Shown here piece after piece: positions 12,630 through 39,276 of a DNA stretch of 64,000 nucleotides. The DNA lies in NCBI RefSeq assembly GCF_007992115.1, contig NZ_BJZQ01000008.1, forward strand, positions 1 to 64,000. Direction: 5' to 3'. Below the pieces are notes generated by a model. It was not told the DNA's origin, ran no database searches, and worked only from the letters and a program-made list of their open reading frames with translations. The position numbers and the translations under genes are program-made. Numbering within the stretch: position 1 is the first letter of the stretch; each line of letters starts with the position of its first letter. The stretch comes from Aeromicrobium flavum (GTDB taxonomy: Bacteria; Actinomycetota; Actinomycetes; Propionibacteriales; Nocardioidaceae).

Positions 12630-12686
12630 CAACAACCACCAACAACCGCTAAATCGCTGGAAAGTGAGCCTGAAACGTCACTGCCC

Positions 12687-12956: not shown

Positions 12957-15900
12957 ATGTCCGCGGACGGCGAGGTCATGAGGCCGGTCGAACTTCTAAA
13001 TCACCGGGAGGAGTCCTGGTCACGGAAGGCGGCAGCCGTCTCACTCATCGCCGAGTGTGACGTGAATCCGGAGTTCACCGAGCAGGCGTTGGGCGTGCTC
13101 GGCCAAGGGTACCGGGTTCTCAACCCCAAAGGCAGGGCCGAGGGATGGCTTCGCCGCTGGCCGGCGGTTCACGTGATGTCCACCGTGCTGGTGGCGACGG
13201 AGCACTACAGCAACGGCACATTCTGGCCGCGCCTGTCAGAGCTCGCGGGGGTCGCCCAAGATCAACAGTTCCAAAGAGCGTGGGGTCAGGCGTTCTTGCA
13301 CAATCTCGAACAGTTGGGGCTCCCCAGGTTCGAAGACGTGGACGATGCGGGCAGTACGTACGTGGGTCGCATCCTGTTGCACTCCGGGGTGCCCACGTAC
13401 TGCTTGCCGGACTTCTTCACCCTCGTGGAAGAACGGCGACGGCGGACCCCAGGGCTCAGTGCTGATGCGTTCGTGGCGTGGGCTTCGTCCCGCCCTCTCC
13501 CTCACGTCGACAAGCCCGTCGCGCGCTTCCTCAAGTATGGCGGGGAGTTTGCTGTCGACGTCGTGGACCGTGTTTTCGACCTCTTGGACATTGCTTCGGT
13601 GGGAGGGAACCTTGACGAGGTTCCTCTGCCTGACAGGTTCCGTCAGGCTGCGCTGGAGCTGGCGCAAGCTGGCTCGATCGCGCGCAGGTCGCGTCGTTCT
13701 GCCTCAGGGCTGAATGCAGGCGCTGACCGACACCCGCGATTGTTCCTCGACCCCTTCGGTCGGGGTCTGCTTCTGCGGCTCCCCGCCGTGAGTGAGGCAC
13801 CAGACGGTACAGCCAACTGGGTCGTCGGCATGGATGGCGTACGCCAGCGAGTAGCGACGAAGGCCCTGTGGCCGGGCTCCGGAGAGCCTGCCCCACCAAC
13901 GGATGTATCAGTTCGTGCTCCGGTGCGAAGCGTTAGCGCCGCTCTGGAGAGTCACGGGCACTTGGCGGTCACGCTGCCGGTCGTTGATGAACGCGACCCC
14001 CTCCTCGCTTTTGACGAGGAAGGCACCCAACTCGTTCCCGGAGTGCCTTGGCGGGTTTCGACAGCTTGGTTGCTCTTCCCCGGCCAGAGGGACGATCTAT
14101 CGGTGACCGGCACCTTGCACGTGCTCACGGAGGCATCCCTGCCTCCGGGCTGGGTGGGTTGGTCCCTCATCCAGGTTGACCTGACCCACGTCACCTCGAT
14201 CTCTCATGGCGACAGCGCGAAGGCGCACCCCGTGCGCCGTGCCCATTCAGCGCGGATCGTCGTGCCCACTCCCATCGGTGGCGTACGAACCCGCACAGGT
14301 GATCCGGTGTTCACGGCGCCACCTCACATCGATCTACCCCCAGAGCTGGGTCCCGATGTGACATGGGAGGTCAGTATCGTCAACGGGCGAGGGGAACTCC
14401 TGGCCCGTCGTGTTGGTTTGACGGATCCTGATCAAATCTGGAGCGAAATACCCCGCCCCCTCTTTGGGGCCTACGCGCTCAAGGTCCGTGGGCCATGGGG
14501 ACGCAGCGCCTCCCGTGATCTGGTCATTGTGGAAGGCCTGACCCCGACCTTTTCTCCCGTCTGGCGGCGGTTCCAGGTGCAGGGCGGCCTCGTGCCCTGT
14601 GAGGTCCGCATCGACGTCAACGAGGCCATGCACTGTGACTCCGCGTCGCTTTCGTTGGACTCGCACACCGTGAAGAGCAGCATCGCCATCACCCGCGGCG
14701 CTGACTCCCTGCATCTCTCGGTGGAGCCCGCCCACATGTCCGTCACGCACCAGTCGACTCAGGGGGTGACAGGCCCAACGGTTCAACCGCCGCTGTTATA
14801 CACCGAGGACCTGGCCGCAGAGCCTGGCGTGCTGATTCTTTCGGTCGGGGCATCGGCGGCTCCGCTCCTACACGTGTTCGACGGCAAAGAACGACTGCAG
14901 GTCGTGGAGCCGGGCGCCGACGCTCGACACGGACTGCATCGATTCGATCTACGCAAGATCACCGACACGATGTTGGCCCACCCGCAGTTGAGACTTTGTG
15001 TTGACCCTGAGGGCATCCTGGAGATCGCGAACATCCGCCCTCACCGGTTGTTCAGTGGACTCCGGATTACAGATGGTGTCATCGTCCTCGATGACTGTGT
15101 CAACTTGGCTGGTCTCACCGTGATCGCGTATGCGACGCGTGCTCCCTGGCGTTCGGGAGTGCAGATTCCCGTCTCCGATGGCCACGCGTCACTGCCCGCC
15201 GAACTCGTCCAGGCCGGGCCCCTCGTCGTGAGCGTTCGGGTGGAGGACCCGTGGCTGCCTGAGCCGGTCCCGGCGTGGGCGCAGCCCGGTGAGGCCACGA
15301 TCGTTTACGACGATGGGCATCTGATCAGTGCAGATACCGAAGAAACAGCTTTGTCGGCCTACCTGGCAGACATGGGTCCAGTGCCGTCTGACCTCAAGGA
15401 CCTGGGACGGGTCTGGTCTACGTTGGCACGCCTCGACCAGATGCAAGTACGTGAGCGGACGCGAAAGCAAGGCGAGTTGGCGCGTTTGCTGGCGATGGAT
15501 GTGTCCAGTTCCCTCATCGCGCTCACCTCCTCGGCCCTTGATGCGGCTGAGCGACTCCAGGTGTTGATCGATTCCAAGCTCGCCGCGGCTCCGGTCCAGG
15601 GTGCCCCGGTGCAAGTCGCAGACTTGGACTGGTCGAGGCAGAGTCTGGTGATGTCGGTGCTTCTGCTTGGTGCGGTGGATCCCGCTGCCCATCAACAAGC
15701 AATTGAGGAGGCAGTGGTCAGTGGTGGAGATCTTCTGCGGCTCGCTGCGCTGGGGAAGGACCCCGCTCCTCAAATCAGTGCCTTAGGACCGAGTCATGAC
15801 CTCTACGACTCGTCTGGCCCAGACGTTCGTGCTGCCCTCGAGTCCGTCGCCGCCTTCGTCCCTCAAGGGGTCGTCGATCCTGAGTCGCGTCGGCTCGCGA

Positions 15901-16274
15901 CCTTCGAGTTCTTGAAGACACGACATGACCATAATTTGGGCCTCGTCATTCCGCCCGCCGAGAAGCTTCTGGCCCAGGCGCGCGTCCTGTTCACGCGTGT
16001 CGGCGATCCGGACTCTGCTTTAGCCGTGGATGCACGAAGTCACCCGACGAATCCCACCTCATGGCGCACGATTCCACAACTTTCGATGGCCTTCGCGTGC
16101 GGCGCACGGCACGCCGCCCACGGCAGTGCAACGGCGGCGGGTTGGATCGACGCCCACCGGCGAGCCTGGTCCCAGATCGTGCGCGCATGTCCGGACTTGG
16201 TCGCAGCGGACCTGATTCTCGCCGAGTTGATGATCAACCCTCCGTCCCTCCCAGATCTCGAGGAAGCCTTGTGA
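12957..16274 (+). CDS. Large protein of unknown function, first gene of the defence array
   Basis: 1105 aa, family not recognised. The N-terminal third is helical and contains [33 protein letters not shown] and [20 protein letters not shown], which look like conserved motifs. The middle (about 330-800) is rich in short beta strands with Ig-like spacing; the C-terminal part is helical. There is no ATPase, nuclease or methylase motif and no membrane segment. ATG 12957 has GGGAGAG upstream; the longer frame start lies inside the palindrome region. The stop overlaps the next start (GTGA), so it is made together with the helicase and may be its partner or a target-sensing subunit. Confidence 0.8.
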
Positions 16275-19200
16275 ACCCCTCTATCGACGCCGTCGGTGCC
16301 TCCCATGACATCACTAGCACCTACCGGCGGTACCTGAGGTCGCTCCTGGCGGTCCGCGACGCGAAGATGGGTGCGGCGCTCACCCACGCGATCGAGACGA
16401 GCCCGCTTTTGGACAAGGGGCCTTTCTTGGAGGCCACGCCTCCTTACGCTCCCCGAGCCACGCTCCAGGACCTCATCGATGAGGGTGTTCTCACCCCCGG
16501 GTTCGCTGATATGGCCAGTGCCGCCCTGCCGTTTGACCGGCCTCTGTACGCCCATCAGGAGAGTTCCGTCCGCAAGGTTGGAGCCGGGCGGAACGTGGTC
16601 GTTGCCACGGGGACCGGATCCGGTAAGACAGAGTCGTTCCTCTTGCCGATCCTTGACTCGCTTGTGCGCGAGAAGGAGGCAGGGACCCTCGGACCCGGCG
16701 TACGAGCGCTTCTCCTATACCCGATGAATGCACTGGCGAATGACCAGATGAAACGCCTGCGACAGCTGCTTGCGCAGTACCCGGACATCACCTTCGGTCG
16801 GTACACCGGAGAGACCGAGCAGGACCCCATCAAGGCCCGCGAGAAGTTCGCGGACCTCAACATCGGCGAGCCGATCCTGCCGAACGAGATCCTCAGCCGC
16901 CAGGAGATCCGAGATGCGCCTCCGCACTTCTTGCTGACGAACTACGCGATGCTCGAGTACTTGTTGCTTCGGCCCTTGGACTTCGAGCTCTTCGGTGACG
17001 GCAACAGTTGGCGCTTCATCGTCGTCGATGAAGCGCACGTCTACGACGGCACTCAGGGCGCCGAAGTTGCCATGTTGTTGCGCCGTGTCCGGGATCGAGT
17101 GGCTCCAGGGCGGGCGATTCAGTGCATCGCCACGTCCGCGACGGTTGGCGGCGACACCGACCCTTCGACCGTGACGACCTTCGCCACGAACCTCTTCGGC
17201 GAACCCTTCGAGTGGCGAGAGGGCGACCCCGAGCGGCAGGACCTGATCCTTGCGCGTCGAGTAGGCCTCCCCAACGGGCCGTTCTGGGGGCCACTGTCTG
17301 CCCTCGAGTGTGTCCAGATAGCCGCCAGTGCCGACCCTGAGTCAGCGGTTCTGGCCAAGGCTGAAGCGCACGGCGCAGTCGGCGAGACCGCCGCTGACGT
17401 CCTGGTGAACGAGCAGAGCCTTGCCGAAGTGCGCCGTATCTTGACAGAGGGTCCCCAGCCGATCAGGACGGTGGCCAGACGGGTGTTCGGTGACAGCGAT
17501 GAAGCCGAGGCCGGTCTGGCCGCGCTGGTTCAACTTGGGAGCGCACTGCGTCGACACGATGGAACGACCCCCCTATCAGCTCGTTATCACCTCTTCCTAC
17601 GGGCCACCGAAGGGGCTTTCACGTGCTTGGGCACGTCAGGCCCCCACGTGCAGCTGGCACGACACGAGAACTGCCCGGACTGCGCTGCGCGCATGTTCGA
17701 AGTGGGTTCGTGCACCCGGTGCGGCTCCGTCCACTTGGCTGGGTCAGTAGAGAAGGTCGGTACTCAGGACTTCTTCTTCCCGCCCAGAGCCAGCCAGCGT
17801 CCCACCTGGTTGGTCCTCGGCGATCCGGACGGAAACGTTGACGAGGACGAGGAGGCCGTCGCCTCCGATGTGTTCCTGCTTGAGAGTGAAGCGTTTGCTC
17901 TGTGCGTCATGTGTGGAGCGCTCGGAGCTCCGGGCTCTGGGACGTGCCCGTCCCCTGAGTGCTCCTCGACCGAGGTGAGACTGGTCCGGCGACTCAAGCG
18001 ACAGGGCGAGGAAGTCGCGGGTTGCTTGGTGTGCGGTGCGCGTGGCCAGGGAACTGTCCGGGGGCTTCAGTCGGGCGCGGACGCCAGCGGTGCCGTGATC
18101 GCCACCTCGCTGTACCAGAACCTCAGCGCGCCTGATGTGCCCTTGACGGTGACCGACCACAAGCTGCTGATGTTCAGCGACAGCAGGCAGGCAGCTGCCT
18201 ACTTCGCGCCCTATCTCGAAGATTCCTACGCCCGAGTTCGCCGTCGTCGGCTGCTGAGTCAGAGCTTGGTCCAGGCCGGAACGACAGATGATCCGGTGGG
18301 CGTGGAGGACCTGCTCTTCCACCTGCGAAAGGTAGCCGAGAACGCCGGGGAGTTCGAATGGAACGCGTCGGCCCAGAAGCAGACACGCCACGTCGCTCCG
18401 TGGTTGATGGCCGAGATCCTCAGCACGGACGATCGCCAGTCGTTGGAAGGGTTGGGACTCGTGAGTATCGAACTCATCAGGAACCCTGCTTGGGTGGCGC
18501 CGGCTCCTCTGGTGCAGCTCGGCCTGTCCCCCGATGAAGCGTGGGACCTGATTCAGGAACTGGTCCGAAGTCTGCGTCAACAGGGCGTGGTCTCCATGCC
18601 GGAGCAGGTGGCGCCGAACGACGATATCTTCGCACCCCGACTGGGGCCGATCTTCGTGCGTGGAGAAGGCCCGGAGCCTGGCAAGAAGGTGTTGTCCTGG
18701 CTTCCGGGCAAGGGAACGAATCGGCGCATCGACTATGTGCGGAGAGTGCTGCGGGCCCTTGACCAACAAGTGGACCCGGCAATGGTTCTTGAAGGTGTCT
18801 GGCGAATCCTCACGGCTCCCAACAGCCAAGTGGATTGGTTGCGCACCACTAACGAACCCAAACAGGGGACGGTGCAGCAGGTGGATCACGGAGCTGTGCG
18901 TCTGAGGTGGGTCACGGGGGCAGCCCCGGTCTACCGTTGCTCGGTGTGTCGCCGTACGACGCCGGTGTCGGTGCGGGCTGTGTGCCCTGCCCTCGGTTGC
19001 GAAGGAACGCTGGTGAAGTTCGCTCCACCGGCGATGGAGAATGAGGCGGACCACTACCGGAACCTGTACCGGGCGATGCGCCCGGCCAAGCTCACGGCGC
19101 TGGAACACACGGCACAGTGGACAGGTCGCGAAGCTGCAGCGATTCAGCAGAAGTTCGTCACCGGCCAGGTCAACGCCTTGTCGTGCTCGACCACGTTCGA

Positions 19201-21238
19201 GTTGGGCGTCGACGTGGGAGAATTACAAGCGGTGCTCCTACGAAACATGCCACCGACGACTGCCAACTACCTGCAGCGGGCGGGGCGTGCGGGTCGTCGC
19301 GCCGGTGCTGCTGCCCTGGTGGTTACCTATGCTCAGCGCCGCTCCCACGACCTGAGCAGGTTCGCAGCTCCCGAGGTGATGATGTCCGGTTCGGTGCGTT
19401 CGCCGTATGTCCCGCTGACCAATGAGCGCATTGACCGCCGCCACGTCCACTCAGTGACGTTGGCCGCGTTCTTCCGCTGGTATTTCGAGGAGACTTTGCG
19501 CATTGCCCGCACGGCAGGGGAGTTCTTCCTTGACGGGAACCAACACGAGGTTCCACCGGTCACCTTGGTCGAGCAGTTCCTCAAGGTGGTTCCCAGCGCA
19601 CTCACCGACTCATTGCTCCGCGTGGTCCCGCGTTCGGTCGCTCAACGCCTCGACATTGAGGGCGGAGATTGGGTAACAGAACTGCTTGATCTCCTGAAGC
19701 AGACTCGTGAAGAACTTGAAAATGACGTCCAGGCTCTCAAAGAGCTGGAAGTCGCGGCCGCAGCCGCGGGGAACTACGGTCTCGCGCAGCGCTACAGCAA
19801 GGTGGTCGCCACGCTGCACAAGCGCGAGTTGCTGGGATACCTGTCCAACCACAACGTCTTGCCCAAGTACGGGTTCCCGGTCGATTCTGTCGAACTCCGC
19901 ACGAACTATGGCAGGTCCGAGCACAACGTGGGCAAGTTGGTGGAGCTCAGCAGGGACCTCTCCCGGGCGATCCACGAATACGCGCCGGGTTCCCAGATCG
20001 TTGCCGGTGGGCGGGTTTGGACTTCACGCGGGGTATACCGGATGCCGGGGCGGGAGCCCGAATCGTTCAAGTACCGAGTGTGTGAAGGGTGCGGCTCATT
20101 CCGTCGCTCCCACGGCGAGGTCGATCCCATCTGCGATCGATGTGGGACCGAGTCGACGCGGATGCAGCGCACGCTGACAGTTCCGGAGTTCGGATTCGTT
20201 GCGGATCCCGAGACGACCCGGCCCGGCAGTCGTCCTCCCCAGCAGTTCTGGAGCGGATCTGTCCACGTGCTCGCCCAATCAGCGGAGGCGACGGAATCCG
20301 TGTTGGCCTTGGATGGGGGGCAGATCACCGTCAGCCAGGGCCCGCGGGGACGTATGGTCGCGATCGCCGACGGGCCGTCCGGGATGGGGTTCTGGATCTG
20401 TCAATGGTGTGGTTACGGTGCGCCATGCGCCGAACACCCGAGAAGGCCACCGGGATCTCACACGAGCCCGGTCACGGGCAAGCCGTGTACAGGGCCGGCC
20501 GACCGCTTGGATCTGGCGCACACATACGAGACTGACCTGCTCGACCTCGCGTTCTCCGCTGGACTGTCGGACGACAAGGACACGTGGAAGTCTGTTCTGT
20601 ACGCCATTGTGGAGGCCGCCAGCGAGTCCTTGGAGATCGCCCGCGATGACATCGGCGGAACCTTGTCGCCGACGGGGATGAACGCTTGGTCCGTGTCGTT
20701 GTTCGACACGGTTCCGGGTGGAGCAGGGCACGTCCTGTTGGTCGCCCAGAATCTGCCGAAGGTCCTGCGCGCGGCCTTGGGCCGTGTCGAGAACTGTGAG
20801 TGTGGACCGGAGACGTCGTGCTACGGATGTCTGCGGAGCTTCAGCAATCAACGCGACCATGACGTGCTGTCTCGTGGCCGCGCTGCCGAGCTGCTCTCCA
20901 CCCTGCTCGGCTCGTCGGCATCGGAACGTGCGTCTTCAGACGCGCCCCAGATCCAGGACTCCGATGACCTCCCTTCGGAGTGGCGGGCTGCTTGGGCTCA
21001 AGCAAACCAAGGTGAGCGCGCGTTGTTGCTGACGCTGCTGGCAGCCGATGTTCCTGTCCCGACAGTGGGGGCGGAAACCGAGGAGGGGGTTCCGCTCTCG
21101 CTGAGTTGGCCCCACGCGAAGGTGGCCGTCTCCACTGGACTCGAACCTGCTGAGATGGAGCAATTAGTCAACGCCGGATGGAAAGTCGTGGCAGATGACG
21201 CAGCCTCTGTTGCCGCGGCCGTTGGGGCCGGCGGGTGA
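16271..21238 (+). CDS. YprA-like DEAD/DEAH helicase with DUF1998-type C-terminus
   Basis: 1655 aa. Walker A GTGSGKT is at about residues 114-120, DEAH at 253-256, SAT (TSATVGG) near 298, and motif [15 protein letters not shown] at about 1000-1012. Several zinc-ribbon Cys pairs occur between residues 460 and 930. The C-terminal cluster [12 protein letters not shown] (Cys 1509-1520) is the DUF1998/MZB-type zinc site. This is the layout of YprA/MrfA-related DNA helicases found in DISARM- and Druantia-like systems. GTG 16271 overlaps the previous stop and has GAGGAA upstream; the longer frame starting at 16061 is inside the preceding gene. Probably a translocase acting on invading DNA. Confidence 0.9.
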
Positions 21239-21294
21239 GTGGACCCTCACGGCAGCAACGGGTGTGTTCCTCAGACGCAGTGGATCACGCCGAC

Positions 21295-21300
21295 TAGGGT
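21295..21300 (+). promoter_or_regulatory. Possible internal leaderless promoter
   Basis: TAGGGT lies 6 nt before GTG 21307 in the only real gap (68 bp) of the array, and there is no ribosome site. It suggests the last four genes can be transcribed apart from the first two. Confidence 0.45.
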
Positions 21301-21306
21301 TCCAAC

Positions 21307-24195
21307 GTGACGATGTCGGGCGCAACAGAGGTGGCAAGTGAGTTCGCGGCGCCGGGTTCGGTTCTCGAGATTCGTGACGAGACATGGCTCGTCACTCGCA
21401 GTGAGCGAGCCACCGACGGATGGTTTGTCGAGGTCCAGGGTCTGAGCGAGCTGGTGCGTGGCACCCAAGCGATTTTCTCCACCGCACTGGACAAGATCAC
21501 GCCCCTGGACCCTGCGAAGGCGACGGTGCGTGTCGACATGAGCCCGGGGTTCAAGCAGTCCCGTCTCTGGCTAGAGGCGTCGCTGCGCAAGACCGCCGTC
21601 CCGATGACGGACCCTCGCCTGACGGTGGCGACCCGTGGTCTCCTCGACCCCCTGCCCTATCAGGAGGCGGCTGTCCGGCAGGCGCTCGACCCGGAGAACC
21701 TGCGGCCCAGGATCCTGCTGGCCGATGCCGTCGGATTGGGCAAGACCTTGGAGATCGGCATGATCCTGGCCGAGCTCGTACGCCGTGGACGGGGCGAGCG
21801 CATCCTGGTGGTGACGCCGAGGCACGTGCTGGAGCAGATGCAGTTCGAGTTGTGGACCAGGTTCGCCCTGCCGTTCGTTCGACTCGACTCGGTGGGCATC
21901 CAGCGGATCCGGCAGAAGCTGCCCGCCAACCGCAACCCCTTCGCCCATTTCAAGCGCGCCATCGTCTCCATCGACACTCTGAAGTCCGACCGCTACCTGG
22001 CGTACCTGGAGAAGCAGCACTGGGACGCGGTTGTCATCGACGAGTCCCACAACGTCACCAACGACGCCACCCAGAACAACCGTCTGGCACGCCTACTCAG
22101 CCAGAAGAGCGAGGCCCTCATCCTCGCGAGCGCCACCCCACACAACGGCAAGCCGGAATCCTTCGCCGAGCTCATCCGGATGCTAGAGCCCAGCGCCGTC
22201 ACCCCCGACGGGGAGCTCGTCGAGGACGAGGTGCGGCGCCTGATCATCCGCCGTCACCGACATAGCCCGGACGTCGCAAGTGTCGTCGGCGCCGACTGGG
22301 CGGAGCGACACGAGCCCCACAACCTGCTGGTGGACGCCAACCCGATCGAGGACGAGATCGCCCAGGAACTTGAGCACACCTGGCTGCACCCCCAAGACGG
22401 CGCCTCGCCGTACTCCGGTGGCAAGAACCTCCGACTTTTCCCGTGGATCCTGGCTAAGGCATTCCTGAGTAGTCCTGCCGCGCTCGCCTCGACTGTCACC
22501 GAACGATTGAAGCGGCTCGATCCCGACAGCCCGACGGCCCCGAAAGAAACCGAAGCCCTCAAGGTCCTCGGCGACCTCGCCGAACGCAATGTGCAGCAGG
22601 GCAGCGCCAAGTACGACCGCCTCGTCGACCACCTCAAGGAAATCGGCATCAGTCGCACGGGCGACGCCCGCGTCGTTATCTTCGCGGAGCGGGTCGGCAC
22701 GCTGACCTGGTTGCAGGAGCGGCTCGTGGAGACGTTCAAGCTGAAATCGGAACAGATCCGGGTGCTCCACGGCGGCATCAGCGACGTGGAGCAGCAGGAG
22801 ATCGTCGAATCCTTCAAGGCCGAGTCCAGCCCGATCCGAGTGCTGGTCACCGGCGACGTGGCTTCCGAAGGTGTCAACCTCCACCTGCAGTGTCATGAGC
22901 TCGTGCACTACGACATCCCGTGGAGTTTGATCCGCATCGAACAGCGCAACGGCCGCATCGACCGCTACGGCCAGCGCCATCGGCCAAGGATCACCACCCT
23001 CCTGCTCAACCCCGCGACGGAGAAGTTCGGCGGCGACATCCGCGTCCTCCAGCGGCTGGTGACCAAGGAGCACGAGGCTCACCAGGCGTTGGGTGACAGT
23101 GCCTCGTTGATGGGGACCTACGACGTGAAGGCTGAGGAGGACGCGATCCGAGAGGTCCTCGCCGGTCGCAAGGAGCTCGACGAAGTCGTGCGCACGGTCG
23201 ACGACGTCAAGGCAGGCAACGGCGTCGAGGCGATGCTGGCCCGCCTTTTCGAGATGGGTGACGCACCCAAGCCGGAGGCGGCGGCCGCCACGAGCGCCGC
23301 CGTCGACAGCGTCTTCGACGACGACCTCGACTTTTTGCGCGACGCCCTCGAGCTCGCCTTCGAGACGCCGGGTGCGTCGGTCCAGATGGGTGGCGTTAAC
23401 TGGCGCGAGCACCAGCAACACGCGATCGTCGAGTTCGTGCCGAGCAATGACTTGAAACAGCGGCTCGACGTACTGCCGCAGTCGTACCTGAAGGAGCGGA
23501 AGGTCTCCGGCGGTATCCGGTTGGCGACCACTCTGGACCGCGGCAAGCAGGCGCTGATCGATGCCCGCGGTCCGGAGTCGACGTCGTTGTGGCCCGAGGC
23601 ACACTACCTGGGACCGCTCCACCCGAGCCTGGACTGGGCGGCTGACCGAGCGTTGGAGTCGCTGGGCCGCAATGAGGTCTTTGCGGTCGCCGGCCAGGGG
23701 GAGCAGGCATTCCTCTTGCTCCAAGGGACGCTCACCAACGCTCGTGGTCAAGTGGTCTCCGCGACCTACGTCGTCGTGCAGTTCCCCGACGCCGCCGACC
23801 CTGTCTTCGCGCTGCCGCAACAGGTCACCACACTGCGCGAGGCTTTCGAGGTGATGGAGTTCCGTCCCGGCGGAGCGAACACCGGCCTCTTAGCCGGGGC
23901 TGAGGGCTTGGACGTGTACGTGGCTCCCGGTGTCGCAGCGGCTCGCACCGTCCTCGACGGTGCGTTCCAAGCCGTCGCCGCAGGTGTCACCGACCGGGTC
24001 GAGCGGTGGTCCGAGCGCGCGACCCAGTGGCAACGGGAGGCGGACGCGCTGGCGCAGCGGCTAGAGATCAAGACCCGTCGGGTCAGGGTTGAGGAGGAGC
24101 GCGCGCTGGTGCGCACGATGCTGCCCGACCAACAGTCCGTCCGCCCGTTGCTTTTGGTTGTGCCTGCACTGAACTCGAAGGGAATGAACGCCTGA
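21307..24195 (+). CDS. SNF2-family (DrmD-like) helicase
   Basis: 962 aa. Walker A DAVGLGKT is at residues 140-147, DESH at 245-248, ASATPHNG soon after, and the SF2 C-terminal motifs VTGDVASEGVNLHLQ and IEQRNGRIDRYGQ at about 516-556. This is the RapA/SNF2 core. The N-terminal 130 residues and the C-terminal 350 residues are family-specific. DISARM class 1 systems encode such a helicase (DrmD) beside a methyltransferase; the same adjacency is seen here. GTG 21307 or ATG 21313 may start it. Its stop overlaps the methylase start by one base (TGATG). Confidence 0.9.
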   Translation: MTMSGATEVASEFAAPGSVLEIRDETWLVTRSERATDGWFVEVQGLSELVRGTQAIFSTALDKITPLDPAKATVRVDMSPGFKQSRLWLEASLRKTAVPMTDPRLTVATRGLLDPLPYQEAAVRQALDPENLRPRILLADAVGLGKTLEIGMILAELVRRGRGERILVVTPRHVLEQMQFELWTRFALPFVRLDSVGIQRIRQKLPANRNPFAHFKRAIVSIDTLKSDRYLAYLEKQHWDAVVIDESHNVTNDATQNNRLARLLSQKSEALILASATPHNGKPESFAELIRMLEPSAVTPDGELVEDEVRRLIIRRHRHSPDVASVVGADWAERHEPHNLLVDANPIEDEIAQELEHTWLHPQDGASPYSGGKNLRLFPWILAKAFLSSPAALASTVTERLKRLDPDSPTAPKETEALKVLGDLAERNVQQGSAKYDRLVDHLKEIGISRTGDARVVIFAERVGTLTWLQERLVETFKLKSEQIRVLHGGISDVEQQEIVESFKAESSPIRVLVTGDVASEGVNLHLQCHELVHYDIPWSLIRIEQRNGRIDRYGQRHRPRITTLLLNPATEKFGGDIRVLQRLVTKEHEAHQALGDSASLMGTYDVKAEEDAIREVLAGRKELDEVVRTVDDVKAGNGVEAMLARLFEMGDAPKPEAAAATSAAVDSVFDDDLDFLRDALELAFETPGASVQMGGVNWREHQQHAIVEFVPSNDLKQRLDVLPQSYLKERKVSGGIRLATTLDRGKQALIDARGPESTSLWPEAHYLGPLHPSLDWAADRALESLGRNEVFAVAGQGEQAFLLLQGTLTNARGQVVSATYVVVQFPDAADPVFALPQQVTTLREAFEVMEFRPGGANTGLLAGAEGLDVYVAPGVAAARTVLDGAFQAVAAGVTDRVERWSERATQWQREADALAQRLEIKTRRVRVEEERALVRTMLPDQQSVRPLLLVVPALNSKGMNA

Positions 24196-28904: not shown

Positions 28905-31900
28905 ACTGCTGCCCAGCCTCGCTGCAGGCAGCATCCGCGACGGGTTGATCGACTACCTCGAGACGACGTTCTCGCTAGCCGACCTCCCGGCCAGGACGGC
29001 GCTCAACGAGTTCCTTGAGCACTCGACCGACGGGATCTTCAAGGGGCCGTATGTCCGGCTTCGACTGCCGTTCCAGCCGGCGGGGGGCGGATGGCGCGAC
29101 AGCCTCGGGTGGCACCCCGCCGACTGGGGCGGCTTCGCGCCGTACAGCCACCAGGCGGCCGCGTACGAGCGGTTGTCCTCTCTCAACCTCGGTCCCGACA
29201 AGCCGCGTCCGCTTCCTACGTTGGTCACCACCGGCACCGGCTCGGGCAAGACCGAAGCCTTCCTGCACCCGATCCTCGACCACGTGCTGCGGTCGAAACG
29301 CGACGGTGTGACCGGTATGAAGGCCCTGCTGCTTTATCCGATGAACGCCCTGGCCAACGACCAGGCCCAGCGACTGGCCGACCTGATCACCACCGACCCC
29401 GCCCTGGCCGGGGTGACCGCCGGTCTCTACACGGGACAGGAAGGACCGCAGCGCACCAAGGTCACTGCTGACGGCCTCATCACCGACCGCTACATCATGC
29501 GCAGCAGCGCGCCGGACATCCTGCTGACCAACTACAAGATGCTCGACCAGATGCTCCTGCGCGAGGCCGACCAGAAGATCTGGGTCGACAGCGCACAGTC
29601 GCTGCAGTACTTGGTCCTCGATGAGTTCCACACCTACGACGGTGCCCAGGGCACCGACGTCGCCATGCTGCTGCGGCGTCTCGGGCTGGCGCTCAAGTCA
29701 CACGGCATGACAGTGGGCGACGGCGAAGCTGATCGTCCGCTGGGGCACATCGCCCCGGTGGCCACCTCAGCCACCCTGGGGGACCGCGGTGACCCCGCCT
29801 CGATGCTGAAGTTCGCCGAGACTGTCTTCGGCGAATCCTTCGGTCCTGACGCCGTGGTCTCTGAGTCTCGCGTTGACTTGGACGACTGGGTCGGCCAAGC
29901 GTCGGAAGAAGCCTTCGCATTGAACCCGCGTGAGGGCGCTGAACTCGTGGGCGCAGTCTCTGCTGCGTTGACGGGACTCGGGATGGATCCGGCCGCGACT
30001 CCGTTGGCCGAAGCAGTGTTGACGGCAGCCTTCGAGGACGACCTCGCCAGTTACCGCGAGGCCCGCGGCACCGCAGGTGACCTGCTCCGCGTGCACCCGC
30101 TGACGGCTGTGCTGGTCGAGGTCTGTCGCGAGGCCACCTCGCTGGCCGACGTGGCCGCAAAGGCCTTCCCGGGCATCGAGGTCGCCGTACGGGAACGCTG
30201 TGTGTCGGCCTATCTGGGTGCCATCAGCCACGTGCGCAAAACCGAGGGGCGATCCATGCCGTCGGTCGAGGTGCACCTGTGGATCCGTGAGCTGACCCGA
30301 ATCGACCGCGAAGCCGCCATGTCGCCAGCGTTCTTCTGGTCCGACGACGGCGGTGCGCCACTCGGGACGGGGCAGGACGAGGACCCGAGCAGCGCCTCCG
30401 GTGCCGTTTTCCCCGCGATCTACTGTCGCCACTGTGGACGCTCAGGATGGGGAGTCTCGCTCTCGCCCGCCAACAGCACCGACCTCGACGTCAGAGACGA
30501 AGACATCCGCCGCCAGCACGCCTCGGGCGAGGGTCGCTTCCGGGCCTTGCTGCTGGCACGCGCTGAGGGGGAGCGCGCCCTTGAGGTGGCGACCACGGCC
30601 GGGGGAGCATCAGGAGCAGAGATCGGGGTCGAGAATCTGCGCTGGTTGCACGTCGCCCAGCGGGAGCTCCTCGCCGCGCCGCCCCAGGGAGAGGCGGCGC
30701 AGGACGGATCCGTGATCCCGGTGCTGACCCACGTCAGCATCGAGGCGGACGACGTCTCCCGCAAGGACCACTGCCCGGCCTGCCAGCAACGCGACGGGAT
30801 CCGATTCCTCGGATCGGCCATCGCCACCCAGCTCTCGGTGGCCCTGTCCACCCTCTTCGGCAGCACCAACCTGGACGCCGCCGAGAAGAAGACGCTGGTC
30901 TTCACCGACAGCGTCCAGGACGCGGCGCACCGGGCCGGGTTCGTGCAGAGCCGTTCGCACAGCCTCACCGTCCGATCCGTGTTGCGCGAAGCCGTCGGGT
31001 CAGCTGCGACGTCACTCGACATGCTGGCCGAGAGGGTCATCGAACGAGCTGGTGACGACGCAGCGCACCGCTACCGCGTCCTGCCGCCCGATTTGGCGGA
31101 GAAGAAGGAGTTCGCGCCGTTCTGGCAGGAGACGACTCTCAAGAAGGTGCCCCAGAGTGTTCGTAAGCGTGTCGCAAAACGGCTTGCGTTCGACGCGGTC
31201 CTCGAGTTCGGGCTCCAGTCCCAGTTCGGGCGCACACTCGAGATGACCAGCACCGTGGCCGTCGAGGTCGAGGCTGCCCCCGGCTTGATGACCACGGCGG
31301 CGCGACAGGCGGTCGAGGACGGGGGAGGGGAAGCGCTTCTGCCCGTCACCGTCACCGACGAACGGGCCCACGCTTGGGTCCGCGGTGTGTTGGAACGGAT
31401 GAGAAGCCGTGGCGCGATCGAGCACCCGTGGCTCCACAAGCTGATCGTGGAGGACGGCAACCGCCATTTCATCTGGCGTGGCCGGCCCCGCTCCGAAGGC
31501 ATGCCCGCCTTCCCGATCGGGCGTACTGCTCCGGCTTATCCCCGAGTTGGTCCTGCGACGAGCGTGCGTGAGTCCGTTCTTGACTCGGTCACCACACCAC
31601 AGAGTTGGTACGCCCAGTGGGCCGTCCGGGTACTGCAGGTCAGTCCCGCCGAGGGCGCCACCCTGTCGCGGCTCCTGCTCAAGCGACTGGCCGGGCACAA
31701 CATCCTGACCGCGACCAGCAACAAGGCCGGTGCCGAGGTCTACGCCGTGCCCCAGACGTCGGTGGTGATCGAACCCATCCAGACCCCAGCCCTCGAGGCG
31801 GGCGAGCACCTTCTCGTCTGCCCCACGTGCCAGGCGCAGGTCCCGGGGTCAGCGACCGTCATCACCCAGCTCGACGGTGCGCCTTGCATGGTGACGCGGT

Positions 31901-34900
31901 GTTCCGGTCTTCTGAAGCGGTCGTCGGGGAACCCCGAAAATTTCTACCGCCGCTTCTTCAGCACCCACGAGGTGCAGCGTGTCATCGCGCGCGAACACAC
32001 GTCGCTCCTCGACGACGACGTGCGACTCGAGTACGAGAACGGCTTCAAGGGTCGTGAGGATCGTCCGAACGCTCCCAACGTCCTCGTGGCCACACCGACG
32101 CTGGAGATGGGTATCGACATCGGTGACCTCTCCACGGTGATGCTGGCGTCGTTGCCGCGCTCGGTTGCGTCCTACCTGCAGCGTGTGGGTCGGGCCGGCC
32201 GCCTCACTGGTAGCGCGCTCGACCTTGCCTTCGTCTCCGGACGTGGCGAGCAATTGCCCCGTCTGGGTGACCCGCTGTCGATGATCAACGGAGAGGTGCG
32301 TCCCCCCGCGACCTACCTCGACGCCGATGAGATTCTGCGTCGGCAGTACCTCGCGTCGCTCGCGGACCGCCAGGCGCGCAGTGCCGGAGGGGTGCATCCG
32401 CAGTTCGCCACCGGCGCCATCGGTTCGATGGAGCCGGGTTCCTACCTGCACTCGATCGCCCTCGACGCCGAAGAGGACCTGCTGGCAGGAGGGACGCACC
32501 TGGACACGTTTCTGGCCGCGTTCCCGACACTGAAGGAACCGGCTCGCGTGATGCTGCGTACGTTCGTCACCCGCGGCGGCGACGCCGAGCTGACCAGCCC
32601 CTTGGGTGAGAGGCTGTTGATCGCTTCGCAGAAGTGGCGCCTCGAGGTCGAGACTCTCGGGCATCGCATCACCGCAATCGAAGCAGAAATCCCTGACCTG
32701 AAACGGGTCGCCGAACTGCCGGTCGCTTCGGAGGACGACAAGCACGCCTACCGCGATGCCGAGGCGTCGCTGCGCCTGGCCAAGAAGCAGCGCGCCCGCC
32801 TCCAAGGGGATTACTGGATCGGCGTCCTGGAACACGCCGGGATCTTTCCCAACTACACCCTGCTCGACGACGCCGTGACTCTCGACGTGGGGCTCTCCTG
32901 GCTGGACCCTGACACGGGAAACTATGAGACCCAGGATTTGTCCTACAGCCGCAACGCTGCTCTAGCGTTGCGCGAGTTCGCACCTGGCGCCACCTTCTAC
33001 GCCGGGGGCCACCAGGTGAAGGTCGACACCGTCGACCTTGGGGACAGCGGTGAGGCGATCCGCACCTGGGTGCTCTGCCCGGCGTGCGGATTCGTCGCTG
33101 ACGTCACCGACGGCACCCAAGCTCCCAGCAGCTGCCCCCGATGCTCCAGCGCCGGGATCGCGGACCTCGACCAGCGCTTCGACGTCGTCGAACTGACGCG
33201 GGTCTCGTCCACGATGCGGCGTGACGAGGCGGTCATCGACGACGGGCGTGAGGAGCGCATCAAGGAGCGTTTCGACCAGGTTGTCCTCGCCGACGTGAAT
33301 CCTGCGGGCATCGCCCACCAGTGGTACATCAAGGACTACGGCTTCGGGGTCAAGCACGTCCGCGATCTGGTGATCCGGTGGCTCAACCTGGGCCGGATGT
33401 CTGGTCATGGTTCGAGTCGTTTCCTCGGTGGGCACGACGTCAACGCCGAGCTGTTCAGGATCTGCTCCGAGTGCGGACAACTCGACAGCGGCGCACGCAG
33501 CAACTCCAAGTACGAACACCGCCCATGGTGTCGCCTGCGCAATGCCTCCGAGGAGGACACTCGAAGAATCGCGCTGTCGCGCACCCTCGTGACGGAGGGG
33601 TTGCTGATGCGGCTGCCGCCGATGATCTCACTCGGAAGCAACTTCGCCCTGCCCTCCCTCGCCGCAGCCGTCAAGCTCGGGCTTCGTGAACACATCGGTG
33701 GAGCACCAGACCACCTCGCACTGGAGGTCGTGGTTGATCCTTCGCCGGACGACCCGGATCTCAACGCTGACGGACTCCTCCTGCACGACCTGGTGCCCGG
33801 CGGAACCGGTTATCTGGCAGAGCTGGCAGATCCCGCCACTCTGCGCGCGATCCTCTTCCGGGCGTACGTGTTACTGCGTGATTGTCAGTGCAGTGGGAGC
33901 GAGAGACTAGCCTGCCACCAGTGCCTGCTGCCCTTCGCCGGCCCCGGCCAGGATCGTCTCGTCTCCCGCTCAGAGGCCCATCGTCTGCTGCACGAGATCC
34001 TGCACGGCGGAACTCAGACCGACGCCGAGCCCGACAAGGCTGCGGGCTGGGAGATCACTGAGGTCGCCGTTCAAAGTTTCGACCCCGAGTCGAAGATGGA
34101 GCAGAAGTTCCGCGCGGTACTCAAGCAACGGTTGAGCACCTTGGGTGCCCACATCAAGGAGATCCCGGGCAACCTCGGGACCACCATGGAGATCACCATC
34201 GGGGGAGGGCGCAAGTGGCGCCTGGATCCCCAGGTCACCTTGCTCGGCAGCAAACCGGACTTTCTACTCATCTGCAACGATCCGTCGGTGCCGCGGATGG
34301 CGATCTTCTGTGATGGTTGGCGCTACCACGCAAGCCCGCTGCACAACCGTCTATCTGACGATGCCGCGAAGCGCGCGATCCTGCGCGACGACGGATTCTT
34401 CGTCTTCGGCATGTCGTGGGCGGACCTCGAGGAGAGCACGCCGAGCGGACCGAACTGGTTCGATCGGGACGCCATCGGACCAATCATGGGCGGTGCTGGA
34501 ATCAACCTGAAGCCGGCACTCTTCGACCTGCTGTCGGGCAGCGTCATGGACCTGTTGATGGGCTGGATCCAGACCCCCGACCCGGAAGGGATGCGTGCCA
34601 TCGGTGACGCCATGCCCTTCGTGATCGCCGCTCGAGCACAGGAGAAGGGAGGCACGGGCCAACGCAGTGACCTCATGGCGATCGCTGGTGGGCTGCTGGA
34701 TGGGCAAGCTCTAGGTCAAGGGGACGTGCCCGTGTGGGCCTGGCGCGACGACACGTTGGTCGTGCTGTCCCGGTGGAACCCCAAGAGCTCCGCCACCGAG
34801 ATCACGGTGACCCTCGACGACCGCGACCAGGTGATCGGTCACCAACACAAGGCCGCGTGGCAGGAATGGCTCAGATTCAGCAATCTCGTGGGGTTGCGCA

Positions 34901-35256
34901 CCGTAGGCACCAAGGTCACGGTGGCGAGCCTGCTGACCACCACCGCGACGCCGACGGTGGATACTACTGCCGAAGCGGGCCGGAGCACGGACTTCAGATG
35001 GGATCCGGTCATCGGACTGGCCGCCGACGAGGAGAGGGAGTTCCTCGTTGCGCTCTCGCGGACTTCCGTGCCGGTGCCCGACCTGGAAGTTGAGATCGAC
35101 GGAGTGCCCTTAGGGCCAAGTTGGCCCGACCGGAAGGTCACCGTCGCTGTCGACCTGAGCGACGATGAGCGCACGATGCTCGCCGACCTGGGGTGGGACG
35201 TGGTCGACATGGACATCGAGGCGGCTGTGGCCGCTCTGGAACTAGGAGGATTCTGA
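28897..35256 (+). CDS. Giant YprA-like helicase with DUF1998-type cluster and C-terminal nuclease-like domain
   Basis: 2119 aa. Walker A GTGSGKT is at residues 113-119, [13 protein letters not shown] follows, then DEFH at 242-245 and motif VI YLQRVGRAGR at about 1093-1102. The DUF1998-type Cys cluster CQCSGSERLACHQC is at 1663-1676. Downstream, residues about 1733-1840 read EQKFRAVL, then LLGSKPDFLLI (Asp 1788), then FCDGWRYH (Asp 1806, His 1811) and a Gly-x-x-Val-Phe strand. This resembles Vsr/DUF559-type PD-(D/E)XK nucleases. So a DNA translocase is fused to a probable DNA cutter. ATG 28897 overlaps the methylase end; the 3' end overlaps the UvrD gene. Confidence 0.9.
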   Translation: MSELLPSLAAGSIRDGLIDYLETTFSLADLPARTALNEFLEHSTDGIFKGPYVRLRLPFQPAGGGWRDSLGWHPADWGGFAPYSHQAAAYERLSSLNLGPDKPRPLPTLVTTGTGSGKTEAFLHPILDHVLRSKRDGVTGMKALLLYPMNALANDQAQRLADLITTDPALAGVTAGLYTGQEGPQRTKVTADGLITDRYIMRSSAPDILLTNYKMLDQMLLREADQKIWVDSAQSLQYLVLDEFHTYDGAQGTDVAMLLRRLGLALKSHGMTVGDGEADRPLGHIAPVATSATLGDRGDPASMLKFAETVFGESFGPDAVVSESRVDLDDWVGQASEEAFALNPREGAELVGAVSAALTGLGMDPAATPLAEAVLTAAFEDDLASYREARGTAGDLLRVHPLTAVLVEVCREATSLADVAAKAFPGIEVAVRERCVSAYLGAISHVRKTEGRSMPSVEVHLWIRELTRIDREAAMSPAFFWSDDGGAPLGTGQDEDPSSASGAVFPAIYCRHCGRSGWGVSLSPANSTDLDVRDEDIRRQHASGEGRFRALLLARAEGERALEVATTAGGASGAEIGVENLRWLHVAQRELLAAPPQGEAAQDGSVIPVLTHVSIEADDVSRKDHCPACQQRDGIRFLGSAIATQLSVALSTLFGSTNLDAAEKKTLVFTDSVQDAAHRAGFVQSRSHSLTVRSVLREAVGSAATSLDMLAERVIERAGDDAAHRYRVLPPDLAEKKEFAPFWQETTLKKVPQSVRKRVAKRLAFDAVLEFGLQSQFGRTLEMTSTVAVEVEAAPGLMTTAARQAVEDGGGEALLPVTVTDERAHAWVRGVLERMRSRGAIEHPWLHKLIVEDGNRHFIWRGRPRSEGMPAFPIGRTAPAYPRVGPATSVRESVLDSVTTPQSWYAQWAVRVLQVSPAEGATLSRLLLKRLAGHNILTATSNKAGAEVYAVPQTSVVIEPIQTPALEAGEHLLVCPTCQAQVPGSATVITQLDGAPCMVTRCSGLLKRSSGNPENFYRRFFSTHEVQRVIAREHTSLLDDDVRLEYENGFKGREDRPNAPNVLVATPTLEMGIDIGDLSTVMLASLPRSVASYLQRVGRAGRLTGSALDLAFVSGRGEQLPRLGDPLSMINGEVRPPATYLDADEILRRQYLASLADRQARSAGGVHPQFATGAIGSMEPGSYLHSIALDAEEDLLAGGTHLDTFLAAFPTLKEPARVMLRTFVTRGGDAELTSPLGERLLIASQKWRLEVETLGHRITAIEAEIPDLKRVAELPVASEDDKHAYRDAEASLRLAKKQRARLQGDYWIGVLEHAGIFPNYTLLDDAVTLDVGLSWLDPDTGNYETQDLSYSRNAALALREFAPGATFYAGGHQVKVDTVDLGDSGEAIRTWVLCPACGFVADVTDGTQAPSSCPRCSSAGIADLDQRFDVVELTRVSSTMRRDEAVIDDGREERIKERFDQVVLADVNPAGIAHQWYIKDYGFGVKHVRDLVIRWLNLGRMSGHGSSRFLGGHDVNAELFRICSECGQLDSGARSNSKYEHRPWCRLRNASEEDTRRIALSRTLVTEGLLMRLPPMISLGSNFALPSLAAAVKLGLREHIGGAPDHLALEVVVDPSPDDPDLNADGLLLHDLVPGGTGYLAELADPATLRAILFRAYVLLRDCQCSGSERLACHQCLLPFAGPGQDRLVSRSEAHRLLHEILHGGTQTDAEPDKAAGWEITEVAVQSFDPESKMEQKFRAVLKQRLSTLGAHIKEIPGNLGTTMEITIGGGRKWRLDPQVTLLGSKPDFLLICNDPSVPRMAIFCDGWRYHASPLHNRLSDDAAKRAILRDDGFFVFGMSWADLEESTPSGPNWFDRDAIGPIMGGAGINLKPALFDLLSGSVMDLLMGWIQTPDPEGMRAIGDAMPFVIAARAQEKGGTGQRSDLMAIAGGLLDGQALGQGDVPVWAWRDDTLVVLSRWNPKSSATEITVTLDDRDQVIGHQHKAAWQEWLRFSNLVGLRTVGTKVTVASLLTTTATPTVDTTAEAGRSTDFRWDPVIGLAADEEREFLVALSRTSVPVPDLEVEIDGVPLGPSWPDRKVTVAVDLSDDERTMLADLGWDVVDMDIEAAVAALELGGF

Positions 35257-37499
35257 TGGCTGTCGTCATCTTCGCCCCGCACAAAGACGGACTGCACGAC
35301 GGGTCGATCCAGAGCCAGATCATGGCGTTCATCAAGAAACTCTTCCAGGACGACACCCTTCCGGGGCTCCACATCGAGCCCATCCAAGGAGCGATCGATC
35401 CCAAGGTGCGTACCGGTCGGGTCAACGACATGTACCGAGCAGTGCTCTTCAAGGTGTACTCGTCACAGGGGGAGCCGCACTACATCTTCACGGGCGTGTG
35501 GCCGCACGACAAGGCGATCGCCATTGCCGAGAAGGCCGTCCTCAAGACCAATTCGGTCAACGGGCTTCCCGAGCTGGTGATCAACCCGCTGGTGGAGCAG
35601 CTCGCGCCGGGTCACTCGGCGCCCCCGACCGTTCCCGAGGCAGTGAGCGAGGCTCCGGCTGGGGCGCCGCTCTTGGAGTCGGTCAGTGCGGGCATCAGCT
35701 TGCAGCGCATGACGGACGAGCTCGGGTTGGATCCGGAACTGGCAGAGCGCGCCCTCGCCGCCACCACCGAAGACGAGCTGCTCGCGCTGGCGAGTGGCGC
35801 CGTCGAGTGGCAGGGGCTCGCGCTGGTTGAACTAACTGCAGGCGGAACGATCGAGCAGGTCTTGGAGAGTCTCGACATCCACGGGACGGTGGAGGTCGCC
35901 GAAGGAGAGTCCGAGGAGGACCGACTCCTCGAAGCGTTGAAGACGCGTGCTGGGAAGGCCCAGTTCGTCTGGCTCGAGGACGACGACGAGTTGCGTGCCG
36001 TCATCGAGGACGGCGACTTCGCCGCCTGGAAGGTTTTCCTGCACCCGGAGCAGCGCAAGTACGTCGAGGGCCTCTACAACGGCTCATTCAGGCTGTCCGG
36101 AGGAGCCGGTACCGGCAAGACCGTCGTCTTGCTGCACCGCGCAAGGTTCCTCGCTCAGCGAGACCCGTCGGCGCGCATCGTATTGACGACCTATACCCGC
36201 ACGCTGGCCGACGCCATGAAGCGCGACTTGCTTTCGTTGGATTCCAACTTGACCTTGGCCACATCGCTAGGCGAGCCGGGGATCTTCGTGACGGGGGTCG
36301 ACTCGGCCGCGAGCGCCGTCCTCTCCAGTGCGACGCCTGCTGCCCTGGACGCGGCGGTGGAACGCGTGCTCGGCGTCGGCGGGAACCGCGCGAGCAAGCG
36401 GACGACCAATGAGGCCAAGGCGTGGCGTGACGCGGTGGAGTCCTCAGGGGTCGGGCTTCCAGATGAGCTCAAGAGCCCGTCTTTCTTGATTGCCGAGTAC
36501 GACGCCGTGGTTCTTCCTCACCGGATCACCACCAGGGACGAGTACCTCAAGGTCCGTCGGCCGGGACGGGGCGTTGCCTTGGGTCGGGCCCAGCGAGCGA
36601 TGGTGTGGGACGTCATCAACGCCTACCGGACGTCCGCCGCGGTGGCCGGCCTGGTGGACTTCGGTGAGGTCTGTGGGATCTCCGCCGCACTCCTCGACCA
36701 GGCGTCCACGGCAGGGCAGGACCGTCGCGCTGACCACGTGTTGGTCGACGAAGGGCAGGACCTCACCGCTGCGCGGTGGCAGTTCCTGCGGGCGCTGGTC
36801 GCAGAAGGACCCAACGACCTGTTCATCGCGGAGGACGCTCAACAGCGCATCTACGGTCAACGCATCACGCTCGGGCGCTACGGGATCAAGATCGTGGGTC
36901 GGGCTCGGCGACTGTCGTTGAACTACCGCACCACCCATCAGGTGCTTCGTTTCGCAATGGGGGTGCTTGAGGGACAAGACTTCGTCGACCTCGAGGAAGA
37001 GGAGACGGACTCCTCCACCTACCGATCAGCACGGAGTGGCCCCCAGCCGGTCCGCAGGGGGCTCGCCTCGCTGACCGAAGAGCTGGACGAAGCCGCACGG
37101 ATCATCAGCGAATGGCTCGACCCTGACCTCGGCATGAGTCCCGAGGCGATCGGCATCCTGGTGCGGGACCAGCGCACGTCTGATCGCGTCACCAAGGGCT
37201 TAGAAGACCGGGGCATCAAAGTCCGGCAGGTCACGAAGGGCGCGGCGACTGCCAAGGATCCGCAGGTCATGACGATGCACCGTGCGAAGGGAATGGAGTT
37301 CTCCCGCGTTCTGATCTTCGGCGCGGACGCTGAGATGCTTCCCGCGTCTTACTTGCTCAAGGATGTTGCGGAGGGTGACCGAAGCGACGTCCTACAACGA
37401 GAACGTTCGCTCCTCTACGTCGCTGCGACCCGAGCGCGCGATGAGCTGGTGGTGCTCTGGGAAGGATCGGGCAGCGCGTTCCTCGCGGGCGCACAGTAG
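35256..37499 (+). CDS. UvrD-type SF1 helicase with RelE-like N-terminal domain
   Basis: 747 aa. Residues 1-110 (IQGAIDPKVRTGRVNDMYRA ... VWPHDKAIAIAEK) have the strand and helix pattern of RelE/ParE-like proteins. A linker rich in acidic residues follows. The helicase core has GAGTGKT at 283-289, VDEGQD at 497-502, LNYRTTHQVLRF, TMHRAKGMEFSRV and LYVAATRARDEL. ATG 35256 has AGGAGG 6 nt upstream and overlaps the previous stop (TGATG). SF1 3'-5' helicases of this sort process DNA ends; the toxin-like domain may bind RNA or act as a sensor. Last gene of the array. Confidence 0.88.
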   Translation: MAVVIFAPHKDGLHDGSIQSQIMAFIKKLFQDDTLPGLHIEPIQGAIDPKVRTGRVNDMYRAVLFKVYSSQGEPHYIFTGVWPHDKAIAIAEKAVLKTNSVNGLPELVINPLVEQLAPGHSAPPTVPEAVSEAPAGAPLLESVSAGISLQRMTDELGLDPELAERALAATTEDELLALASGAVEWQGLALVELTAGGTIEQVLESLDIHGTVEVAEGESEEDRLLEALKTRAGKAQFVWLEDDDELRAVIEDGDFAAWKVFLHPEQRKYVEGLYNGSFRLSGGAGTGKTVVLLHRARFLAQRDPSARIVLTTYTRTLADAMKRDLLSLDSNLTLATSLGEPGIFVTGVDSAASAVLSSATPAALDAAVERVLGVGGNRASKRTTNEAKAWRDAVESSGVGLPDELKSPSFLIAEYDAVVLPHRITTRDEYLKVRRPGRGVALGRAQRAMVWDVINAYRTSAAVAGLVDFGEVCGISAALLDQASTAGQDRRADHVLVDEGQDLTAARWQFLRALVAEGPNDLFIAEDAQQRIYGQRITLGRYGIKIVGRARRLSLNYRTTHQVLRFAMGVLEGQDFVDLEEEETDSSTYRSARSGPQPVRRGLASLTEELDEAARIISEWLDPDLGMSPEAIGILVRDQRTSDRVTKGLEDRGIKVRQVTKGAATAKDPQVMTMHRAKGMEFSRVLIFGADAEMLPASYLLKDVAEGDRSDVLQRERSLLYVAATRARDELVVLWEGSGSAFLAGAQ

Positions 37500-39175: not shown

Positions 39176-39234
39176 GTGCATCTCCTCCCTAGGCTGGAAG
39201 TCAGGTGTGCAGCCCGCGCCTGCTGAACGACGTT

Positions 39235-39276
39235 TCGTGTATCACTCTCGTGTATCACTCGGGCAGAAGTGATACA
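39235..39276. repeat. Right copy of subterminal repeat (arm-type sites)
   Basis: 39235-39262 is identical to 6075-6102 and carries GTGTATCACT at 39237 and 39250. An inverted AGTGATACAT follows at 39267-39276, and GTGATACAC recurs at 39413-39421 next to the core. They overlap the integrase upstream region and probably also repress its promoter when bound. Confidence 0.65.

Follow-up and report, generated by a model that had tools for sequence, protein, structure and literature searches.

Adjacent Druantia III and ARMADA II systems as the probable anti-phage cargo of an integrated element in Aeromicrobium flavum

The DNA considered here, hereafter the window, is a stretch of 64,000 nucleotides of the actinobacterium Aeromicrobium flavum (positions 1 to 64,000 of contig NZ_BJZQ01000008.1, assembly GCF_007992115.1), which at 12957-37499 carries an array of six long open reading frames (ORFs) on the same strand that fill the array's span (Table 1). 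A sequence-only reading of this stretch had proposed six co-directional genes, a description borne out by the ORF list and by the third-position GC content, which is gene-like at 0.71-0.85 in the array frames; most of the surrounding core genes lie at about 0.9 and above, and the lower values of the array fit acquired DNA. The five junctions, which had been described as overlapping or nearly so, comprise four overlaps, namely 4 nt between the stop of gene 1 at 16274 and the GTG start of gene 2 at 16271, 1 nt at 24195 between genes 3 and 4, 8 nt at 28897-28904 between genes 4 and 5, and 1 nt between gene 5 and gene 6 (ATG at 35256), together with one gap of 68 nt between the stop of gene 2 at 21238 and the start of gene 3 at 21307. 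The six genes are probably co-transcribed. Taken together with the analyses below, the array very probably comprises two known anti-phage systems, Druantia III followed by ARMADA II, which form a single co-directional cargo of a mobilizable integrated element. It weighs against this interpretation that we infer both the co-transcription and the cooperation of the two systems, and that the anti-phage role of the array is a prediction from homology.

Table 1. Features of the array and its carrier element (window coordinates)
Feature	Position	Strand	Basis or description
28-nt exact terminal repeat, left copy	6075..6102		
Excisionase/HTH_17	6517..7128	-	TIGR01764
AbiEii-type toxin, cargo	7420..8298	-	Pfam/PADLOC scans
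AbiEi-type antitoxin	8265..8843	-	PADLOC AbiEi 190 bits; below Pfam cut-off
TrwC-type relaxase	10071..12635	-	domain scan
Gene 1, most likely druH	12957..16274	+	1105 aa; predicted phage sensor/nuclease of Druantia III
Gene 2, druE	16271..21238	+	1655 aa from GTG; YprA-type helicase
Shared C-terminal domain of DruE	20978..21217	+	profile comparison
Gene 3, armA	21307..24195	+	SNF2/RapA (BrxHII-like) helicase; Pfam, PADLOC DrmD
Gene 4, armB	24195..28904	+	PglX-like N6-adenine methylase
Gene 5, armC	28897..35256	+	YprA-type helicase, Vsr/MTES_1575-like nuclease, then degenerate C-terminal domain
Shared C-terminal domain of ArmC	34996..35232	+	profile comparison and AlphaFold2 model
Gene 6, armD	35256..37499	+	747 aa; RelE-like N-terminus fused to GajB/UvrD helicase
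Tyrosine recombinase, weak	37772..39181	-	PF00589 E 6e-4, below cut-off
28-nt exact terminal repeat, right copy	39235..39262		

ARMADA Type II was described in a 2025 preprint from E. coli NCTC 12900 and ATCC 8739 (Bell et al.; PMC12458937) as an ordered set of a BrxHII/RapA-like helicase, a PglX-like methylase, a YprA-like helicase with a Vsr-type nuclease at its end, and a GajB/UvrD protein to which a RelE-like domain is almost always fused. In Pfam and PADLOC, genes 3-6 match, in turn, a DrmD/BrxHII-like SNF2 protein, a PglX-like/type IIG-like methylase, a YprA helicase with an MZB domain and a GajB-like UvrD protein. Because their content, order and catalytic motifs match the published definition, genes 3-6 are assigned by sequence to ARMADA Type II. 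ArmA (PADLOC DrmD, 302 bits) and ArmB (REase_MTase_IIG PDLC03611, 1427 bits) are, respectively, 36% and 33% identical to the copies on the E. coli plasmid NZ_CP127005, and ArmC and ArmD 29% and 32%. Walker A motifs occur in ArmA (GLGKT, 143), ArmC (GTGSGKT, 113) and ArmD (GGAGTGKT, 282), and ArmB has an NPPW motif at residue 947; mutation of the Walker A or NPPW motifs abolished ARMADA II defence in E. coli, the only organism for which its anti-phage activity is described (PMC12458937). The Vsr-like motif of ArmC, PDF...FCDGWRYH (residues 1787-1811), was set by eye beside the E. coli counterpart PDY...FLDGFAFH, and the MTES_1575 match is weak (E 0.001, below cut-off); the tail of the protein (residues 1700-2119) is modelled by AlphaFold2 (AF2) at a predicted local distance difference test score (pLDDT) of 89.8. 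In a tree that has no known Type I sequence, ArmC groups with E. coli ArmC, which sits on a long branch, apart from all DruE proteins with a Shimodaira-Hasegawa-like approximate likelihood-ratio support of 100. The RelE-like N-terminus of ArmD has no match in Pfam and is read from the sequence and the published description of ArmD. Compared with E. coli, the strict four-gene order, the Walker A motifs and NPPW are kept, whereas the genes here belong to an actinobacterial branch, 29-36% identical to the plasmid copies, and, unlike E. coli ARMADA II, stand directly downstream of a druE that bears a C-terminal domain (CTD) of the ArmC type. The true start of ArmA may lie about 14 codons downstream of 21307. 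A tRNA-Ala called by ARAGORN at 22922-23012 on the minus strand is antisense within the coding sequence of armA and is probably a false positive.

The sequence-only reading had recognised the SNF2 helicase (supported by the DrmD-like match in Pfam and PADLOC), the adenine methylase (Eco57I/PglX-like) and the RelE-UvrD helicase (UvrD by Pfam), and its guess of an ARMADA-related group holds for genes 3-6 and fails for genes 1-2, which are a separate Druantia III pair. As for DISARM class 1, relatives of its DrmD-like helicase and DrmMI-like methylase are found in the array too. However, DISARM has separate DrmA and DrmB proteins and the phospholipase D (PLD) DrmC, whereas here the helicase and DUF1998 modules are fused in one protein, and Pfam finds no PLD domain in the six proteins, as had been noted; the array is thus not DISARM.

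The first two genes make up an actinobacterial-type Druantia III pair, belonging to a two-gene DruH-DruE system already tested in M. smegmatis (PMC13316683) and E. coli (PMC13192584). Gene 2 scores 597 bits with the PADLOC DruE1 model and 577 bits with DruE3; both it and gene 5 match DEAD, Helicase_C and MZB/DUF1998 in Pfam, which upholds the claim of two YprA-like helicases, and DruE shows a Walker A motif, GTGSGKT, at 114 and DEAH at 253. The M. smegmatis pair, MSMEG_1253-1254, likewise consists of druH and druE with overlapping ends, its DruE has the same named domains (DEAD, Helicase_C, DUF1998), and the lengths are close (1132/1667 aa against 1105/1655 aa here; PMC13316683). ARMADA genes beside it find no mention in the available text of PMC13316683, whereas the present array has them. 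E. coli Druantia III resembles the array in the layout of its DruH sensor, its YprA-family DruE and the frequent company of ARMADA II (PMC13192584, PMC12458937). In contrast, the two C-terminal PLD domains of E. coli DruE, a trait of the main Druantia III branch, are absent here: Pfam gives no PLD match, and beyond the MZB region there is only the ArmC-type CTD. A distinct III-like (yellow) YprA branch is described as most often without a nuclease domain (PMC12458937).

Gene 1 had been left as an unknown protein of 1105 residues, and it indeed goes unnamed by Pfam, PADLOC and NCBIfam (no match at E<=0.001); nevertheless, it is most likely DruH, because of its position immediately before DruE, which it shares with DruH of E. 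coli, the residue fit of a relative, a colinear profile match and the domain layout of its AF2 model. DruE follows gene 1 in 18/18 loci long enough to judge (of the 20 found, all except L013 and L025), in 17 of the 20 loci of a second set (L074 being the same contig as L021), the misses being L086, L090 and L091, where gene 1 is a weak match, and in all 20 of a third set (where L188 repeats L017, a Microbispora metagenome-assembled genome with the same gene 1-DruE pair). About 4.7 kb separates gene 1 from DruE in L022, L191, L192 and L194. A search of 5.8 billion proteins recovered the M. smegmatis protein P0103, which is 41% identical to gene 1 over 95%. When P0103 is compared with the published M. 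smegmatis DruH (MSMEG_1253; PMC13316683), 9 of 11 named residues fit at an offset of 72, equal to the length difference (864 and 865 misfit), and at most three fit at any of the other 13 offsets tried; from this fit we infer that P0103 is MSMEG_1253. The P0103 record begins 72 residues past the published start, and start sites in the family look unsettled.

Aligned by hhalign with 38 E. coli-type DruH proteins, the gene 1 family gives a colinear match with a score of 41.4 over 717 columns, which is reached by none of 40 block shuffles (mean 21.4, standard deviation 3.0, maximum 29.1); with the uncleaned set the score is 40.8 and the highest of 60 shuffles is 27.6, the reversed profile scores 18.8, and the C-terminal third on its own (21.6) exceeds its shuffle maximum of 20.4. 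The AF2 model (pLDDT 85.5, predicted template modelling score 0.56) is helical to about residue 240, beta-rich and immunoglobulin-like (Ig-like) at 258-785, and helical at the C-terminus, akin to E. coli DruH, for which PMC13192584 describes helical ends flanking Ig-like domains at 257-748. Several results run counter to the DruH assignment. The PADLOC DruH models match 0/36 members of the gene 1 family even at E<=10; the hhalign probability is 12.6% (E 0.0023); the N-terminal (23.4) and middle (20.2) thirds do not exceed their shuffle maxima (28.4 and 28.6); E. coli DruH (9tud) is absent among the best 50 of 397 Foldseek matches to the model, which are generic Ig-like only; and most of the published residues are changed, with D240 and D1108 alone kept (gene 1 D211 and D1085), while at eight of the other nine listed positions gene 1 and P0103 have different residues, and both have E at 865. 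The failure of the DruH models, the generic Foldseek matches and the thirds within shuffle range would suit an unrelated sensor that has replaced DruH at the same place. Set against the residue fit of the P0103 relative, the colinear match that no shuffle equals and the shared helical/Ig-like/helical layout, such a replacement appears very improbable.

The Druantia-ARMADA partnership recurs, in an order that is not fixed. In keeping with the check proposed by the sequence-only reading, gene 1-DruE-ArmA-ArmB-ArmC is found in the window's order, the first five genes being compared, in four other actinobacterial genomes (L009, L010, L012, L023), and the whole series recurs on E. coli plasmid NZ_CP127005 (zorA2B2E / DruH-DruE-ArmA-B-C-D), where it lies beside Zorya II and where DruE and the Arm proteins fall in much the same PADLOC families as those of the array. 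Elsewhere the order varies: the four ARMADA genes stand upstream of gene 1-DruE in L131 and L147, as do ArmB (cut by the locus end), ArmC and ArmD in L006, a Nocardioides record, and the ARMADA genes are on the opposite strand in L077/L150 and L085/L149. In L085 and L149, two tandem ArmD genes and a further ArmD-like gene lie near the CTD-bearing DruE, with ArmC on the strand opposite to DruE. Solitary RelE-UvrD (ArmD-like) genes, 33-35% identical to E. coli ArmD, occur in L212, L218, L220 and L022, where they precede the DruH-DruE pair by about 4-15 kb and the examined flank shows no ArmC. Relatives of gene 1 are sparse, in counts that each include the query's or reference genome: 2/39 close relatives, 3/396 genomes of the phylum, 8/391 of its own order, 17/348 of the order of a Mycolicibacterium (G042), 3/297 of the order of G040 (two marginal) and 29/200 of the order of G048 (some fragments). 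ArmC at E<=1e-60 occurs in 1/97 phylum genomes, its own, and in 5/15 genomes chosen for gene 1.

The sequence-only reading had also raised the possibility of a new six-gene subtype, that is, one integrated DISARM/ARMADA-like system whose parts act only together. The overlapping junctions, the recurrent five-gene order, the CTD common to DruE and ArmC, and the published synergy of Druantia III and ARMADA II in E. coli (PMC12458937) are compatible with it. However, genes 1-2 and genes 3-6 each match described systems, which in published work protect alone (PMC12458937, PMC13316683); 42 of 45 loci with a CTD-less DruE have no ArmC in the examined flanks or, where searched, the genome, so that most pairs stand without ARMADA II; and L004 and L005 carry ARMADA without Druantia. 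Hence, a single new system is very unlikely, and the array is better seen as known systems in a known partnership, since Druantia III and ARMADA II side by side are already published for E. coli (PMC12458937, PMC13192584).

The sharing of the CTD between DruE and ArmC is an unexpected and new observation of the array. This degenerate Vsr/DUF559-like domain of about 75 aa, modelled in ArmC at a block pLDDT of 92-97 by AF2, was sought with a profile built from ArmC alone, which matches 9/54 DruE proteins and, weakly, E. coli ZorE. All nine CTD-bearing DruE proteins lie beside ARMADA genes or remnants, seven of them with an intact ArmC; that of L008 adjoins ArmA, an ArmC tail and ArmD, and that of L007 has only an ArmD nearby. 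Among the 45 DruE proteins without the CTD, several of them on short contigs, three (L072, L077, L089) have an intact ArmC within about 20 kb. Fisher's test gives p 2e-5 when ArmC must be intact and 4e-8 when remnants count as well, values from related rows that are uncorrected for kinship. On the tree the CTD changes about four times, leaving only three to four independent pairs, none opposed; these evolutionary contrasts are too few to establish significance, and the dependence of the CTD on ARMADA is a lead, not proof. Stand-alone ORFs resembling the ArmC tail with the CTD were seen at L008:21368-22438 (357 aa) and L135:496-1704 (403 aa); the former sits between ArmA and ArmD, with neither ArmB nor a full ArmC seen at that locus. 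One further locus with a CTD-less DruE (L202/L222) carries upstream of gene 1, on the opposite strand, a divergent YprA-SNF2-methylase row, an order given for ARMADA Type I (PMC12458937); this row was not counted in the CTD/ARMADA test.

At just under an even chance, we consider that the two systems are mere defence-island neighbours with no functional link, and that the common CTD arose by chance recombination between related helicases. Defence genes cluster anyway, end exchange between helicases as related as DruE and ArmC would be easy, three loci pair ArmC with a CTD-less DruE, the independent contrasts are few, and E. coli ZorE forms no stable complex with Druantia proteins according to the available text of PMC13192584. 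This view is strained by the company of ARMADA genes or remnants at all nine CTD-bearing loci, with the kinship-uncorrected p of 4e-8; by L085, where the CTD is present though its DruE belongs to another branch than the main group; and by the related domain in ZorE. More tentatively, and on balance doubtfully, the degenerate CTD, its catalytic site lost, could be a coupling tag through which DruE, ArmC and E. coli ZorE attach to a common partner or DNA structure, with DruE possessing it only alongside ARMADA.

The carrier is consistent with the claim of an integrated element with the array as cargo next to AbiE: an AbiEii/AbiEi pair (7420-8843), a relaxase and a recombinase lie between exact 28-nt repeats, each of two tandem TCGTGTATCACTC units, whose copies 33.2 kb apart likely mark the element ends. 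Beside the repeat, 160 nt at 5798-5957 duplicate, at 78%, the opening part of the DUF255/thioredoxin gene (39285-41297), which suggests that the element inserted at the beginning of that gene and not in a tRNA gene; the two end regions cover 5798-6102 and 39235-39463. The Zorya-Druantia-ARMADA islands of E. coli (SPIDER elements) have in common with the present element the DruH-DruE-ArmA-D order as well as an integrase and an excisionase; the carrier here differs in its TrwC-type relaxase and in its apparent insertion at the start of the DUF255/thioredoxin gene in place of a tRNA gene. Among the matches listed (the best 25 where there were more), none of the six array proteins has a Zorya family as its top hit, and no Zorya family matches 8 genes around them, the rest of the genome not having been searched.

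Published work allows a mechanism to be sketched. M. smegmatis DruH is toxic alone, binds DruE and is neutralised by it; a minor tail protein sets off the pair, which then prevents phage DNA from circularising and replicating, and the infected cell dies (PMC13316683). In E. coli, 3' single-stranded DNA is where DruE loads, DruH acts as a dimer that nicks DNA (PMC13192584), and ARMADA II gives protection that does not kill the cell (PMC12458937). By analogy, DruH would be activated on recognising a protein of the phage tail or baseplate, and DruE, as a 3'-loading YprA helicase with no nuclease of its own, would open or hold replicating or non-circularised phage DNA. ARMADA would act on phage DNA through its SNF2 translocase, PglX-like methylase, ArmC helicase with Vsr-type nuclease and RelE-UvrD protein. 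As DruE here is without a nuclease, cutting may fall to DruH and the ArmC Vsr domain, and the CTD might help both helicases meet the same partner, site or DNA structure. If the CTD does couple systems, they may meet through DNA or through a host factor as their common partner, given that ZorE forms no stable complex with Druantia proteins in E. coli. It speaks against this scheme that, unlike in M. smegmatis, no stable DruH-DruE complex is reported from E. coli in the available text (PMC13192584, PMC13316683).

Why neighbouring defence systems synergise is a question that both preprints, in their available text, leave open, and the CTD, if it is a coupler, would provide a molecular handle on it. 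More immediately, a protein family unrecognised as DruH by the libraries used here now gets that name. The array represents known systems in a known partnership from a less studied lineage, and extends the published E. coli block of Druantia III and ARMADA II to several actinobacterial genera.

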